A stretch of 64,000 bases of DNA, taken from an uncultured Litoreibacter sp. (GTDB lineage Bacteria; Pseudomonadota; Alphaproteobacteria; Rhodobacterales; Rhodobacteraceae). A model generated the notes under the pieces. It did not search any database, was not told where the DNA came from, and saw nothing but the letters and a program-made list of their open reading frames with translations. Every line of letters begins with the position of its first letter. The stretch's first letter is position 1. A program made the translations under genes and the position numbers. This document shows positions 47,040 through 52,455 of this stretch, in pieces. The stretch covers positions 310,001-374,000 of the forward strand of contig CANLQL010000001.1 in assembly GCA_947493265.1 (NCBI GenBank). Reading direction: 5' to 3'.

Positions 47040-47981
47040 TTGGACACCACTGCAGTTTTACTTGCCGGACCGAAAGATCTTGGCCTGCAGAACTTGGCGC
47101 TCGATACGCCGGGCGATGGTGACTTGGTTATCGAAATCTCCCACTCAGGAATTTCAACAGGAACTGAAAAGCTGTTCTGGTCCGGCGAGATGCCGCCGTT
47201 CCCCGGTATGGGCTACCCGTTGGTGCCCGGCTATGAGGCCACGGGCGAAGTTGTCTCAGCGCACCGGTCCACCGGGTTTCGCGCGGGCGACCGGGTCTTT
47301 GTCCCTGGCGCAAGCTGCTACGGGGAAATCAAAGGCCTGTTCGGTGGTGCCGCGCGCCGGGTTGTGACGGCTGCTGACCGGGTCACCCGGATCGACGGCG
47401 GCATGGGGGCAGAAGGCGCATTGCTGGCGTTGGCTGCGACTGCGCGCCATTCAATGGCCGGGCTTGATAAGACACTTCCGGATTTGATTGTTGGCCACGG
47501 CGTGTTGGGCCGCTTGCTGGCGCGCTTGACGATTGCCGCCGGAGGGGCCGCACCCACCGTTTGGGAAATCGATCCTGATCGCTGTGACGGCGCGCAGGGT
47601 TATGAGGTGATTAACCCCGCTGACGATCCCCGCCGCGATTACGGCTGCATTTACGATGCATCCGGCAATGGCGGTTTACTCAATGACCTGATCACCCGGC
47701 TGACCAAGGGCGGAGAGATTGTGTTGGCTGGCTTTTATCCAGAACCGCTGAGCTTTGCGTTTCCGCCTGCCTTTATGAAAGAGGCCCGGTTCCGGGTCGC
47801 CGCGGAATGGACGAATGACGATTTGGTTGCCACACGGCAATTGATCGACTGTGGGGCGCTGTCCTTGTCGGGCTTGATTACCGACACGCGCAAGGCCGCA
47901 GACGCCCCAGCCGCTTATGAGCAAGCGTTCAACGATCCGACTTGCCTGAAAATGATCCTCGATTGGAGAGATGTCGCATGA
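47040..47981 (+). CDS. bchC: Bacteriochlorophyllide a dehydrogenase BchC, TTG start
   Basis: Oxidises the 3-hydroxyethyl group to acetyl. The 313-aa product is a zinc-less alcohol-dehydrogenase relative: [37 protein letters not shown] (about residues 35-72) and the Rossmann core [15 protein letters not shown]. The family N-terminus ([10 protein letters not shown]) begins at TTG 47040, preceded by GGAGAGAGGACA; no ATG is available. It heads the bchCXYZ-puf transcript; its stop overlaps bchX (ATGA). Confidence 0.93.
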
Positions 47982-48979
47982 AAGATGAAGTCCCAAACCT
48001 GAAAGATTTCGATCAGCGGCTCCGTGACGAAGCGCATGAGGATCTGGCAGACATCGTGGCCGAAGAGCCAACGTCAAAAACGCAGATCATCGCGATCTAT
48101 GGCAAGGGCGGCATCGGCAAGTCTTTCACGCTGGCGAACCTGTCCCACATGATGGCGGAGCAGGGCAAACGCGTGCTGTTGATCGGGTGCGATCCCAAAT
48201 CGGACACAACAAGCCTGCTGTTTGGCGGCAAAGCTTGCCCCACGATTATCGAGACATCGACCCGCAAGAAACTTGCAGGCGAAGAGGTTAAGATCGGGGA
48301 TGTGTGCTTCAAGCGCGGCGGTGTGTTCGCGATGGAGCTTGGCGGGCCGGAAGTGGGTCGCGGTTGTGGTGGTCGCGGGATCATCCACGGGTTTGAACTT
48401 CTTGAGAAGCTGGGCTTCCATGATTGGGATTTCGACTACGTCTTGCTTGATTTCCTAGGCGACGTGGTCTGCGGTGGGTTCGGGCTGCCGATTGCGCGCG
48501 ATATGGCGCAGAAGGTTATCTTGGTTGCCTCAAACGATCTTCAATCGCTTTACGTGGCCAATAATGTCTGCTCGGCGGTGGAATACTTCCGCAAGCTGGG
48601 TGGCAATGTCGGCGTCGCGGGTCTTGTGATCAACAAAGATGACGGATCCGGGGAGGCTGCTGCCTTCGCCGAGGCGGTTGATATCCCGATCCTAGCATCG
48701 ATTCCGCAGGATGATGACCTGCGCAAAAAATCTGCCAACTACCAGATCGTCGGCACGGCTGAGTCTGAATGGGGCGGCCTGTTTGCAGCGCTGGGCGACA
48801 ATGTCGCTGTTGCTCCACCTGTTCGTCCGGCACCGCTGGACCAGGACGGTTTGCTGGCTTTGTTCGACAGCAAAGATACCGGCGGCGACTACGTTTTGGT
48901 GCCGGCAACCGACATGGATATGCGCGGCAAGAACGCAGAACCCAAACCGTCATTGGAGGTTGTCTACGATGACGCGTGA
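47978..48979 (+). CDS. bchX: Chlorophyllide a reductase iron protein BchX
   Basis: The NifH-like ATP-driven electron donor of chlorophyllide a reductase. The 333-aa product has a P-loop [19 protein letters not shown] (about residues 41-59), switch region [21 protein letters not shown], and cluster cysteines in CFKRGG...[19 protein letters not shown] 47978 overlaps the bchC stop; an upstream ATT-type extension lies inside bchC. Its end overlaps a small frame by 11 bases. Confidence 0.95.
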
Positions 48980-49166
48980 GACCCGAACAATTGTTCGGCA
49001 AGGCCAGAAGGATATCGAACGTATGCGCCGGGAAGCTGAGACCGCATCGATCGGGGCGCAACGCCAAAAAGAGATCCTCGCTGAGAAAAAGCGGGAAATA
49101 GATCGCCAATACAAGAAAGCTGAAGAGCTTGTTGCGAAAACGAAAGGGAAATTGTCGGATGTTTGA
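48969..49166 (+). CDS. Small coiled-coil protein between bchX and bchY, 65 aa
   Basis: I recognise no family. ATG 48969 overlaps the last 11 bases of bchX and is preceded by GGAGG ten bases upstream. The 65-aa product is very charged (18 K/R and 12 D/E, with many Q) without cysteine or membrane segment, and reads as one long helix of heptad character (KDIERMRREAE, KEILAEKKREIDRQ). Its stop overlaps the next tiny frame by eight bases. The chain of overlaps suggests real, coupled expression with the reductase genes. Confidence 0.65.
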   Translation: MTRETRTIVRQGQKDIERMRREAETASIGAQRQKEILAEKKREIDRQYKKAEELVAKTKGKLSDV

Positions 49167-49269
49167 TTTTGAAGAACTCGCGCAATGGGATGATGGCCTG
49201 AAAGCCCTGGAGCCCGACCCTCAGACCGACGACACCGACCGGACTGTTGAGGACGGAAGCAGCGAATGA
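49159..49269 (+). CDS. Tiny acidic protein between bchX and bchY, 36 aa
   Basis: ATG 49159 overlaps the 65-aa frame by eight bases; AAGGGA lies about nine bases upstream. The product, starting MFDFEELAQWDD, has 13 acidic and 2 basic residues out of 36. Its TGA overlaps the bchY ATG (ATGA), so translation would feed straight into bchY. It is too short for the usual ORF lists. No family recognised. It may be a coupling leader for bchY or an acidic partner of the basic 65-aa protein. Confidence 0.55.
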   Translation: MFDFEELAQWDDGLKALEPDPQTDDTDRTVEDGSSE

Positions 49270-50831
49270 GCGATGAGGTCAAATATGACGCTACAGACGC
49301 GACGGTTGTGACAGAAGGTCATCCGAACGCGCCCGAAGGCTCCCCCGTTATTGAAGACGGGATGGGCTGTCATGCGGGTGCTGCGACGATGGAAGAAGCA
49401 GCGCGCGCAGCGGGCAAGTCAGACATTCTGGATCAATATGCAAAGGACTATCCGCAAGGACCCCATGACCAGCCACAATCCATGTGTCCGGCTTTTGGGT
49501 CTTTGCGCGTGGGCCTGCGTATGCGGCGCACAGCGACGATCCTGTCAGGATCAGCTTGTTGCGTTTACGGCCTGACATTTGTCAGCCATTTCTACGGTGC
49601 GCGGCGGTCGGTCGGCTATGTTCCGTTCAATTCTGAAAGCCTTGTGACCGGCAAGCTTTATGAAGATATTCGCGATTCCGTGCATGAGATGGCCGATCCC
49701 GATCGGTATGACGCGATTGTGGTGACGAACCTGTGCGTGCCAACCGCGTCGGGTGTGCCGCTGCGCCTTCTGCCCGATGAGATTAACGGCGTGCGGATCA
49801 TCGGCATTGATGTGCCGGGATTTGGAATTCCGACCCATGCAGAGGCCAAGGATGTTTTGGCCGGCGCGATGTTGAACTACGCGCGCAAGGAAGTTGAAGC
49901 GGGTCCGGTTGCGGCACCTGTCGGCGGTAAGTCTGATCGCCCGACGGTGACCATCCTGGGCGAGATGTTCCCGGCTGATCCAATGAGTATCGGTCAGCTG
50001 ATCGCGCCTTTGGGGCTTGCCACTGGGCCAACCGTTCCGTGCCGTGAGTGGCGCGAGCTTTATTCAGCATTGGATTGCGGGGCCGTGGCCGCAATTCATC
50101 CTTTCTACACGGCATCCATCCGCGAATTCGAAGCCGCCGGACGGCCCATTGTTGGGTCGGCTCCAGTGGGGAGAGACGGGACCGCGGCATGGCTTAGAGG
50201 TCTGGGAGACGCGTTCGGTCTTCCTGACAAAGGTGTGGCCGCCGCACAGAATGCGTCTCTCCCGGCGATTTCGTCTGCGCTTGCAGCCACACCAATCAAA
50301 GGAACGATCACATTGTCAGGCTATGAAGGCAGCGAATTGCTGGTGGCCCGCCTCTTGATCGAAAGCGGGGCGAACGTGCCCTATGTCGGAACTGCGTGCC
50401 CAAAAACACCGTGGTCCGCGGCCGATGCGGATTGGCTGGAAAGCAAGGGCGTAAAGGTTACGTATCGCGCTTCACTGGAAGATGATTGCGCGGCCATGGA
50501 AGCTGTGAAGCCTGATTTGGCAATTGGAACGACACCGGTTGTTCAGAAAGCCAAAGAGCTTGGTATTCCCGGTCTCTACTTTACCAACCTGATTTCGGCC
50601 CGCCCCTTGATGGGCGCTGCCGGGGCCGGATCTTTGGCACAGGTGGTGAATGCGGCGATCAGCAACAAGGACCGGATGGACACGATGCGGGAGTTCTTCG
50701 AAGGCGTCGGCTCTGGCGACACGGCGGGTGTCTGGGAAGGTGCGCCGAATGTACGGGAAGACTTCCGGGCGCTGAACCTCAAGAAGCTTGAAAAGCAAGC
50801 ACGCGCAGCCAAAGCGGCGGAGATGATCTAG
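49266..50831 (+). CDS. bchY: Chlorophyllide a reductase subunit BchY
   Basis: NifD/K-like subunit that, with BchZ, binds the substrate and an iron-sulfur cluster. The 521-aa product has cysteines near the N-terminus (GMGCHAGAATMEEAA; QSMCPAFGSLR; GSACCVYGLTF) and the substrate-fold blocks TNLCVPTASGVPL and LGEMFPADPMSIGQLI. ATG 49266 overlaps the 36-aa frame. A 148-base gap with a repeat element separates it from bchZ, unusual in this otherwise overlapping operon. Confidence 0.94.
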   Translation: MSDEVKYDATDATVVTEGHPNAPEGSPVIEDGMGCHAGAATMEEAARAAGKSDILDQYAKDYPQGPHDQPQSMCPAFGSLRVGLRMRRTATILSGSACCVYGLTFVSHFYGARRSVGYVPFNSESLVTGKLYEDIRDSVHEMADPDRYDAIVVTNLCVPTASGVPLRLLPDEINGVRIIGIDVPGFGIPTHAEAKDVLAGAMLNYARKEVEAGPVAAPVGGKSDRPTVTILGEMFPADPMSIGQLIAPLGLATGPTVPCREWRELYSALDCGAVAAIHPFYTASIREFEAAGRPIVGSAPVGRDGTAAWLRGLGDAFGLPDKGVAAAQNASLPAISSALAATPIKGTITLSGYEGSELLVARLLIESGANVPYVGTACPKTPWSAADADWLESKGVKVTYRASLEDDCAAMEAVKPDLAIGTTPVVQKAKELGIPGLYFTNLISARPLMGAAGAGSLAQVVNAAISNKDRMDTMREFFEGVGSGDTAGVWEGAPNVREDFRALNLKKLEKQARAAKAAEMI

Positions 50832-50912
50832 TGTGCGTTTATCTGGATAAACGCGCACGGCGCAGAGAAGCGATTTTCGTAGAAAATGGCGGCTGCGCGC
50901 TGGTTGATTTTG

Positions 50913-50962
50913 CAGCTGGGGGCCAGCCCCCAGACCCCTGGAGTATTTCCGGCAAGAAGAAG
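50913..50962. repeat. Intergenic repeat element copy 1 (bchY-bchZ gap)
   Basis: An 8-bp inverted repeat CTGGGGGC/GCCCCCAG (50916-50933) is followed by a conserved tail GGAGTATTTccGGCAAGAAGAA. The tail recurs at 58412-58433. Such GC-rich plus AAGAAGAA elements recur in many Rhodobacteraceae intergenic regions, from memory. Confidence 0.6.
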
Positions 50963-50979
50963 CCGCGAGGTCGCGGCTG

Positions 50980-52455
50980 ATGCTGGTGCAAGATCATGAC
51001 AGAGCTGGCGGGTATTGGGGCGCAGTCTATGCGTTTTGTGCAACGAAAGGCTTGCAGGTCGTGATTGATGGCCCGGTGGGGTGTGAAAACCTGCCGGTGA
51101 CGTCCGTTCTGCATTACACTGACGCATTGCCGCCGCATGAGTTGCCGATTGTGGTAACCGGTCTTGGCGAAGGCGAAATGGGCGCAGGCACCGAGGACGC
51201 GATGAAGCGCGCCTGGGGGACATTGGATCCGGCGCTGCCAGCTGTTGTGGTCACCGGTTCGATTGCCGAGATGATCGGCGGCGGTGTGACCCCTCAAGGA
51301 ACGAATATTCAACGGTTCTTGCCGCGCACCATTGATGAAGATCAGTGGGAAAGTGCGGACCGGGCGATGACCTGGATTTTCACCGAGTTTGGCATGACCA
51401 AAGGTCGGATGCCACGCGAAGCGAAACGCGAAGAGGGCGCGGCCCCGCGGGTTAATATCCTTGGGCCGATGTATGGCACGTTCAACATGCCTTCCGATTT
51501 GGCGGAGATCCGGCGTCTGGTCGAGGGGATCGGCGCGGATGTGAACATAGTGATGCCGCTGGGATCGCATATTGCCGAGATGCGCAATCTGGTGAATGCG
51601 GATGTAAACATCTGTATGTACCGGGAGTTTGGGCGCGGGCTTTGCGAAGTTCTTGGCAAGCCGTATCTGCAGGCCCCTGTCGGGATCGATTCAACGACAA
51701 AATTCCTCCGAAAGCTCGGTGAACTTCTGGATCTTGATCCGGAACCGTTCATTGAGCGGGAGAAGCATTCGACGATCAAGCCGGTTTGGGATTTGTGGCG
51801 CTCTGTCACGCAGGATTTCTTTGCGACGGCCAGCTTTGCGATTGTCGCCAATGAGACATACGCGCGTGGGATCCGGAATTTCCTGGAAAACGATATGGGC
51901 TTGCCGTGTGCATTCGCTGTGGCCCGGACGCGCGGCAAGAAAACCAACAATGAGGAAGTGCGCGCCTTATTGGGATCAAAGCGGCCTTTGGTGGTTTTCG
52001 GCTCGATCAACGAGAAGATGTATATGGCGGAGCTGAAAGCGGGCTTTGGCCCAAGCCCCGCCTTTATCCCGGCAAGTTTTCCGGGAGCCGCCATTCGGCG
52101 CGCAACCGGGACGCCGTTCATGGGCTATGCGGGCGCGACTTATTTGGTGCAGGAGGTTTGCAACAGCCTGTTTGATGCGCTGTTCCACATCCTGCCGCTG
52201 GGCAGCGAAATGGATGCGGCCGAGGCGACACCAACCAATCTACGCCGCGATTTCCCTTGGGACGAGGACGCGCAGCGTCTTTTGGACCGGATCGTAGAAG
52301 AGCACCCCGTTTTGACCCGTATCTCTGCCGCAAAGACACTGCGCGACAGGGCGGAAGCCACGGCGCTGAGCCAAGGCGACGAACGGGTCGTGAAAGAAAC
52401 CATCGCGGCCTTCGCGCCTGCGGGATTTGAGATGAAAGAGGGAGTACAGAAATGA
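50980..52455 (+). CDS. bchZ: Chlorophyllide a reductase subunit BchZ
   Basis: NifK-like partner of BchY. The 491-aa product begins [55 protein letters not shown], a family block with the cluster cysteine, and has [56 protein letters not shown] 50980 has only a weak CGAGG before it. The stop overlaps pufQ by ATGA. Confidence 0.94.

Follow-up and report, generated by a model that had tools for sequence, protein, structure and literature searches.

Gene arrangement of the bchC-bchX-bchY-bchZ region

The analysed stretch of DNA, referred to here as the window, comprises 64,000 nt of the genome of an uncultured Litoreibacter sp. It carries the genes of BchX, BchY and BchZ, which together form chlorophyllide a oxidoreductase (COR). 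Two small open reading frames, ORF A and ORF B, lie between bchX and bchY. The features are listed below, where candidate relays are short frames on which a ribosome would be handed from one bch gene to the next.

47978..48979, + strand: bchX (TIGR02016, 6.6e-130), stop codon TGA at 48977-48979; its last codons also hold the GGAGG site and the start of ORF A
48955..48959, + strand: ribosome-binding site GGAGG, located within bchX and 9 nt ahead of the ORF A start
48969..49166, + strand: ORF A, ATG at 48969, 65 aa, predicted single-helix peptide; candidate first relay
49144..49149, + strand: AAGGGA, possible weak ribosome-binding site, 9 nt before the start of ORF B
49159..49269, + strand: ORF B, ATG at 49159, 36 aa, type F1 with an acidic tail; candidate second relay
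49266..50831, + strand: bchY (TIGR02015, 8.6e-217), ATG at 49266
50831..50980, + strand: bchY-bchZ bridging frame, GTG start, 49 aa, without coding signature; candidate third relay
50831..50858, + strand: 12-bp RNA hairpin at the bchY stop, within the bridging frame (-19.6 kcal/mol, z -3.15 for 50826-50875)
50980..52455, + strand: bchZ, recognised by position and by a translation matching the bchZ loci of relatives

Read directly from the sequence, the overlaps are 11 nt between bchX and ORF A, 8 nt between ORF A and ORF B and 4 nt between ORF B and bchY. The original prediction of two overlapping mini-genes that link bchX to bchY was exact in coordinates, peptide lengths and overlaps, and the GGAGG and AAGGGA sites that it named are both in place. 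The bchC frame overlaps bchX by 4 nt, and bchZ overlaps the next frame, at the place of pufQ, by 4 nt; pufQ and the upstream methyltransferase (crtF position) were named by position. The gap between bchY and bchZ is 148 nt long, and the GTG frame shares one base with each neighbour (TAGTG and TGATG). Every step from bchC to the pufQ position is thus overlapped or bridged, so that a ribosome could travel along it without an untranslated gap. Gene pairs coupled by termination-reinitiation have their stop and start codons overlapping or at most about 10 nt apart, and this spacing was found in the window.

Passages of PMC4432870 describe bchY and bchZ as usually overlapping in phototrophs. Part of the bridging frame in the window is occupied by a GC-rich element, GGGGCCAGCCCCCAGACCCCTGGAGTATTT (50919-50948), of which a 19-base piece has one copy in the genome within 2 mismatches. 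A similar frame coding for PPDPR turns up at both junctions in relays from other genomes. The first base of the 12-bp hairpin is the last one of the bchY stop codon. Such a hairpin was found in 4 of 49 relatives and is not general.

Properties of ORF A and ORF B

The G + C contents at the three codon positions are 0.62/0.39/0.53 for ORF A and 0.75/0.41/0.66 for ORF B (overlaps excluded), which is a coding-type pattern. Rare codons account for 1 of 65 codons in ORF A and 0 of 36 in ORF B, and the codon scores of 0.71 and 0.77 compare with a mean of 0.75 for stretches of neighbouring genes. ORF A is predicted to form one helix (residues 3-64, mean pLDDT 90, single-sequence and single-chain model). 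For ORF B, the single-chain model predicts a helix at residues 4-17 and a low-confidence acidic tail (mean pLDDT 74).

Comparison of ORF B with the three same-genus loci L004, L007 and L008 resulted in pN/pS values of 0.24/0.89, 0.35/0.90 and 0.36/0.69, respectively. The ratios of 0.27-0.52 indicate purifying selection, as would be expected of a small accessory subunit. The constraint on ORF A is weaker (0.50/1.01, 0.56/0.66 and 0.57/0.84). Its homologues in L004 and L008 are recognisable over shuffled sequence, yet fast-evolving; 0, 0 and 2 of 500 shuffles equalled the alignment scores of the three pairs.

Neither ORF A and ORF B nor 34 F1 and 24 F2 members of the peptide types described below yielded a match above the curated cut-offs of Pfam and NCBIfam. 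When compared with the PDB, the F1 and F2 profiles gave no more than weak and scattered matches. A 16S rRNA methyltransferase model was matched weakly by 8 of the 24 F2 members, with a best value of 0.0042, far under its cut-off. ORF A has a single match in its own genome, and the F1 profile detected ORF B there and then nothing below E 0.07. A tblastn search with ORF A against plasmids gave no match. In a direct search of 394 family genomes, 80 matched ORF A at E ≤ 1; the best value besides ORF A itself was 0.0165, and the junctions were therefore read by position.

bchX-bchY junctions within the genus, the family and beyond

The BchX cut-off was passed by 12 of 21 same-genus genomes. Inserts are present in 11 of these 12 junctions, in each case with a frame that opens with MFD and ends 4 nt into bchY. 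In the remaining one, L003, bchX and bchY overlap directly. ORF A and ORF B occur together in three junctions (window, L004 and L008), while the other eight contain a single MFD-beginning frame, which is either short and acidic, as in L007 with its ORF B without ORF A, or longer-tailed. Frames of the B type are thus more common than those of the A type. The junction peptides of Litoreibacter roseus (L240) and of an uncultured Litoreibacter (L241) are the same as those of L004 and L007; judged by this identity at the junction, the window most likely comes from a roseobacter of the Litoreibacter type.

For the family, 30 loci were obtained from the 160 genomes with BchX and 80 more were added. 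The total of 240 loci corresponds to 199 distinct junctions, or 198 once L182, which belongs to another family, is dropped. These comprise 84 direct junctions (gap ≤ 15 nt; the bchY start of the direct rows L072 and L252 is misplaced, and L246 was relabelled as direct), 35 of type F1, 30 of type F2, 32 with other small frames and 17 without a clear frame; labels were given by regular expression, with L064, L108, L120, L209, L174 and L181 assigned by eye, and L111 has no junction. The gap measures at least 50 nt in 107 of the 198 distinct junctions. Type F1 is defined by the motif MFDLDxLxxxDxAL and type F2 by ARPEQIxRLLxDI; the remaining types are helical and change fast. Minimal forms of F1 have 21-26 residues, and F2 peptides have 38-93. 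In L153, which belongs to another genus, an A-like frame is followed by a B-like frame. Counted from the bchX stop, the start of the small frames lies at -14 or -8 in 94 of 99 tallied cases, and they end exactly 4 nt into bchY in 79 of 96.

On a BchY tree, a FastTree tree serving as guide only (192 family rows and 24 from outside, six short rows omitted), the presence of an insert changes at least 38 times, compared with a mean of 64.5 for shuffled labels, and the type changes 52 times (99.3 shuffled). Junction inserts are inherited, but their turnover is frequent.

Outside the family, BchX was found in 26 of 385 genomes of the class, and 24 loci were available. An ATG-started small frame coupled to both bchX and bchY was detected in none of the 24, and a gap of at least 50 nt is present in only four of them. 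The expectation that bchX leads directly into bchY therefore holds outside the family in so far as coupled small frames are concerned, but within the family it applies to only 84 of 198 junctions.

Some sequence features were noted besides. Eight F1 peptides (L066, L105, L109, L142, L154, L168, L179 and L243) have Cys-Pro tails (CPF, CPL, CPM or CPA), which we take to be reminiscent of heme-regulatory CP motifs. Three F2-type peptides (L108, L125 and L174) open with C-x-E-C, which may be a metal site; in two of the three, H-x-V-D-C comes after it. A long F2 tail with conserved TAQTRAG..ND...NVT.IN is shared by L079, L096, L260 and L278, three of which are in records named Sulfitobacter.

Of 11 plasmid records with bchX, four annotate the small junction gene as a hypothetical protein, namely those of R. 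ponti, R. litoralis, T. omphalii and Sulfitobacter sp. S190. In S. guttiformis and Thalassococcus sp. S3 the frame is present and absent from the gene tables, which are said to be incomplete. Among the matches listed for literature titles, abstract starts and passages, with subscription papers and preprints outside the scope, no mention of a gene between bchX and bchY was found.

Maintenance of open frames in the gaps

A single ATG-started frame overlapping both neighbours was observed in 90 of the 107 bchX-bchY gaps of at least 50 nt, while 35.3 (sd 4.1) were expected from shuffling conditional on gap length and flanks, a comparison in which related genomes are not independent and kinship is uncorrected. 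The gap length is divisible by three in 85 of the 107. The 17 gaps that are not bridged by one ATG frame include four chains of two ORFs and, judged by eye, about eight plain or repeat-filled gaps, which indicates that a relay is dispensable in some lineages.

With ATG, GTG and TTG allowed as starts, 47 of 53 bchX-bchY gaps were bridged in a set of 88 named loci and the window (expected 14.2, sd 2.9). In the same set, bchY-bchZ gaps of at least 50 nt occur in the window and 48 named relatives, and all 49 are bridged (expected 12.6, sd 2.5); their lengths fall into the three length classes as 46/2/1. With ATG alone, the numbers are 46 of 53 for bchX-bchY (12.5 expected) and 39 of 49 for bchY-bchZ (10.5 expected). 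As a control, the gap between the methyltransferase gene and bchC was bridged in 0 of 87 cases (0.5 expected), with lengths spread over the three classes. Between bchC and bchX no gap exceeds 8 nt. The background, taken from three annotated plasmid stretches of 50 kb each from Rhodobacterales, was 2 bridged gaps among 28 co-directional ones of 50-300 nt (1.2 expected). These values make a translation relay the best supported of the roles originally suggested for the two frames, which also included an accessory or assembly function. Related genomes that kept the DNA spacing and lost the frames would have spoken against the prediction; the opposite was observed, as in most relatives the frames persist and it is spacing and sequence that vary.

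Coding signature and constraint

The second codon position has the lowest G + C content in 34 of 34 F1, 25 of 25 F2 and 24 of 26 other relays, so that 83 of 85 scored relays of these types display the coding pattern, and in 3 of 6 repeat-like relays. The latter were set apart by eye for this tally, which excludes L174, a duplicate row, four rows resembling F2 and seven without a clean bridge. Glycine and proline together make up 9.2% of F1, 8.6% of F2, 4.7% of other and 23.5% of repeat-like relays. For the bchX-bchY relays of the named set, the second position is lowest in 39 of 47, with 7.6% glycine and proline. The bchY-bchZ frames lack such a signature, with the second position lowest in 21 of 49 and a glycine and proline content of 20.4%.

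Mismatches are most frequent at the third codon position, with values by position of 0.46/0.41/0.67 for F1 (duplicate row and L174 included) and 0.36/0.22/0.57 for F2, where the stretch was chosen by its motif and the contrast is inflated. The pN/pS ratio is ≤ 0.50 in 10 of 13 F1-F1 and F2-F2 pairs with at least 63% identity, a choice by peptide identity that biases the ratio downward. Pairs chosen by BchY similarity (BchY pS < 0.6) gave a pooled pN of 0.489 and pS of 0.649. Two pairs of Tateyamaria relays are 43% identical at a BchY pN of 0.012 and 16% identical at 0.033 (L094 and L275). Overall, the constraint on the junction peptides is weak. The F2 profile yielded nine strong matches in 149 genomes (E ≤ 3e-7), several of them members of the profile itself, all within 160 nt downstream of bchX; three weak matches were found elsewhere (E 0.0025-0.007). 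The coding signature suggests that the bchX-bchY peptide matters, whatever its job may be.

Ribosome-binding sites and RNA structure at the starts

One of the motifs GGAGG, GAGGT or AGGAG is present at the end of bchX in 53 of 58 F2 and other relays with the first ATG at -14 or -11. The same applies to 14 of 16 junctions in which bchY itself starts at -14 or -11, compared with 1 of 40 with a bchY start between -4 and +10. The ribosome-binding site thus accompanies a start at -14 or -11, be it that of a relay or of bchY. Among direct junctions with the bchY start at -8, 13 of 23 carry the site. F1 junctions are mostly devoid of the site, which is present in 14 of 35, and in 3 of 16 with the first ATG at -14.

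In every junction class, including the direct one, the average start region is less folded than the gene bodies. In the window, a hairpin covers the start of ORF A (z -2.42) and was considered as classical start masking. This was rejected as a general feature, since junction starts are less structured than gene bodies.

Discussion

Direct overlap or a short gap between bchX and bchY is the rule outside the family and applies to two fifths of the junctions within it. Based on the frames and their overlaps, we consider it probable that ORF A and ORF B are translated relays which keep the COR subunits coupled, and that at bchX-bchY such relays have also become small helical peptide genes. A ribosome ending bchX would restart at once on ORF A, given the 11-nt overlap and the GGAGG upstream. 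It would then reinitiate on ORF B across the 8-nt overlap and next on bchY at ATGA, and the gap between bchY and bchZ would be crossed on frame 50831-50980. BchX, BchY and BchZ would remain translationally coupled because the ribosome is handed on from frame to frame, despite the DNA inserted between genes that overlap directly elsewhere, and balanced synthesis of the subunits would be the benefit. At bchX-bchY, the relays appear to have become genuine small peptide genes under weak purifying selection. The most likely job of the peptides would be contact with BchX or BchY during assembly.

According to passages of PMC10666635, about 20 nt of gap almost abolish translational coupling, and the subunits of complexes show an enrichment of overlaps. 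Open inserts that overlap both neighbours would therefore preserve coupling, and this is the pattern found. Known termination-reinitiation pairs (-4 or -1 nt) share with the present case the kind of overlap and the affiliation of the genes to one multi-subunit enzyme. They differ in that coupling here would span gaps of 50 to about 290 nt via intermediate frames.

Two small elements may serve as precedents for a relay. MIRU repeats of mycobacteria, which insert at start codons, contain a small ORF that is coupled to the following gene by -4 nt, and a short upstream ORF may have no function other than driving the gene behind it (passages of PMC12548453). Such ribosome-delivering ORFs lie upstream, whereas the junction ORFs sit inside an operon between two enzyme genes. 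Unlike MIRUs, the junction inserts are not one repeated element; their sequences are diverse and unrelated, and some are true peptide genes. A MIRU-type many-copy repeat was rejected on the copy numbers of ORF A, ORF B and the bchY-bchZ element piece given above. The second precedent is pufK of Rhodobacter sphaeroides, a tiny ORF in the neighbouring puf operon, for which gating of ribosomes into pufBA is proposed in the part of PMC5725709 consulted. It is said to act by rare codons, and a gate of this type was rejected in view of the single rare codon in ORF A and none in ORF B.

The peptides themselves could be the point, with ORF B, F2 and the other helical types acting as small accessory or assembly subunits of COR and coupling merely setting their dose. 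The coding signature, the conservation of the F1 and F2 motifs across genera and the position of all nine strong F2-profile matches just downstream of bchX are in favour of this explanation. We regard it as possible but doubtful, since 84 of 198 family junctions have no insert, 24 of 24 outside have no coupled frame, and the Tateyamaria relays of L094 and L275 have diverged to 16% identity next to closely similar BchY proteins. The COR of denitrificans is moreover described as active in passages of PMC7242693; the two species concerned may carry a junction gene. A reconstruction of the pathway in E. coli, as described in passages of PMC10443036, used bchCXYZ as one R. sphaeroides fragment, and cloning as one fragment would bring any junction gene along, so that it does not settle whether a peptide is needed. 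Conversely, selection could act on the open overlapping frame alone, the peptides being by-products of pure spacers. This is just what bchY-bchZ displays, where 49 of 49 gaps are bridged by frames without coding signature and with 20.4% glycine and proline, and many bchX-bchY pairs chosen by BchY similarity have near-neutral pN/pS. A pure relay needs no coding signature, and a relay alone is therefore not the whole story at bchX-bchY, where codon position 2 is poorest in G + C in 83 of 85 relays and 10 of 13 pairs, picked by protein identity, have pN/pS ≤ 0.50. Pure spacers are rather unlikely.

Continuous translation might also protect the mRNA by averting Rho-dependent polarity or RNase cleavage, in which case exact reinitiation would matter less. 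Open frames at both junctions would be accounted for as well. Protection does not require a stop on the next start, yet 79 of 96 frames end exactly 4 nt into bchY, which renders this explanation unlikely. Pairing of ORF A and ORF B into a heterodimer by opposite charge, as originally suggested, fits the net charges of +6 and -11 in the window. It did not stand up to comparison, as the charges are +1/-15, -1/-13 and 0/+2 in the three other loci with A and B, and L007 has B without A; we consider such a pair very improbable. The short length of the frames would be in line with chance, an origin contradicted by the shuffle tests, the control gaps and the coding signature and hardly credible.

A further reading extends the relay proposal. 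The bchXYZ junctions could be a cradle for new genes, in which selection for the hand-over keeps inserts open and frames at bchX-bchY have repeatedly matured into lineage-specific helical peptides acting on COR. The bchY-bchZ junction, with its open frame lacking a coding signature, would then represent the raw stage. We put this forward tentatively, as a speculative possibility.

Should the relay explanation be true, the coupled synthesis of subunits in a nitrogenase-like enzyme would be selected strongly enough to force unrelated inserts to stay open. The analysis also brings to light small genes of phototrophic Rhodobacterales that the records examined leave unannotated or list as hypothetical. 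The junctions bchX-bchY and bchY-bchZ offer frames with and without selection on the peptide side by side, which makes relay and peptide function directly testable against each other.
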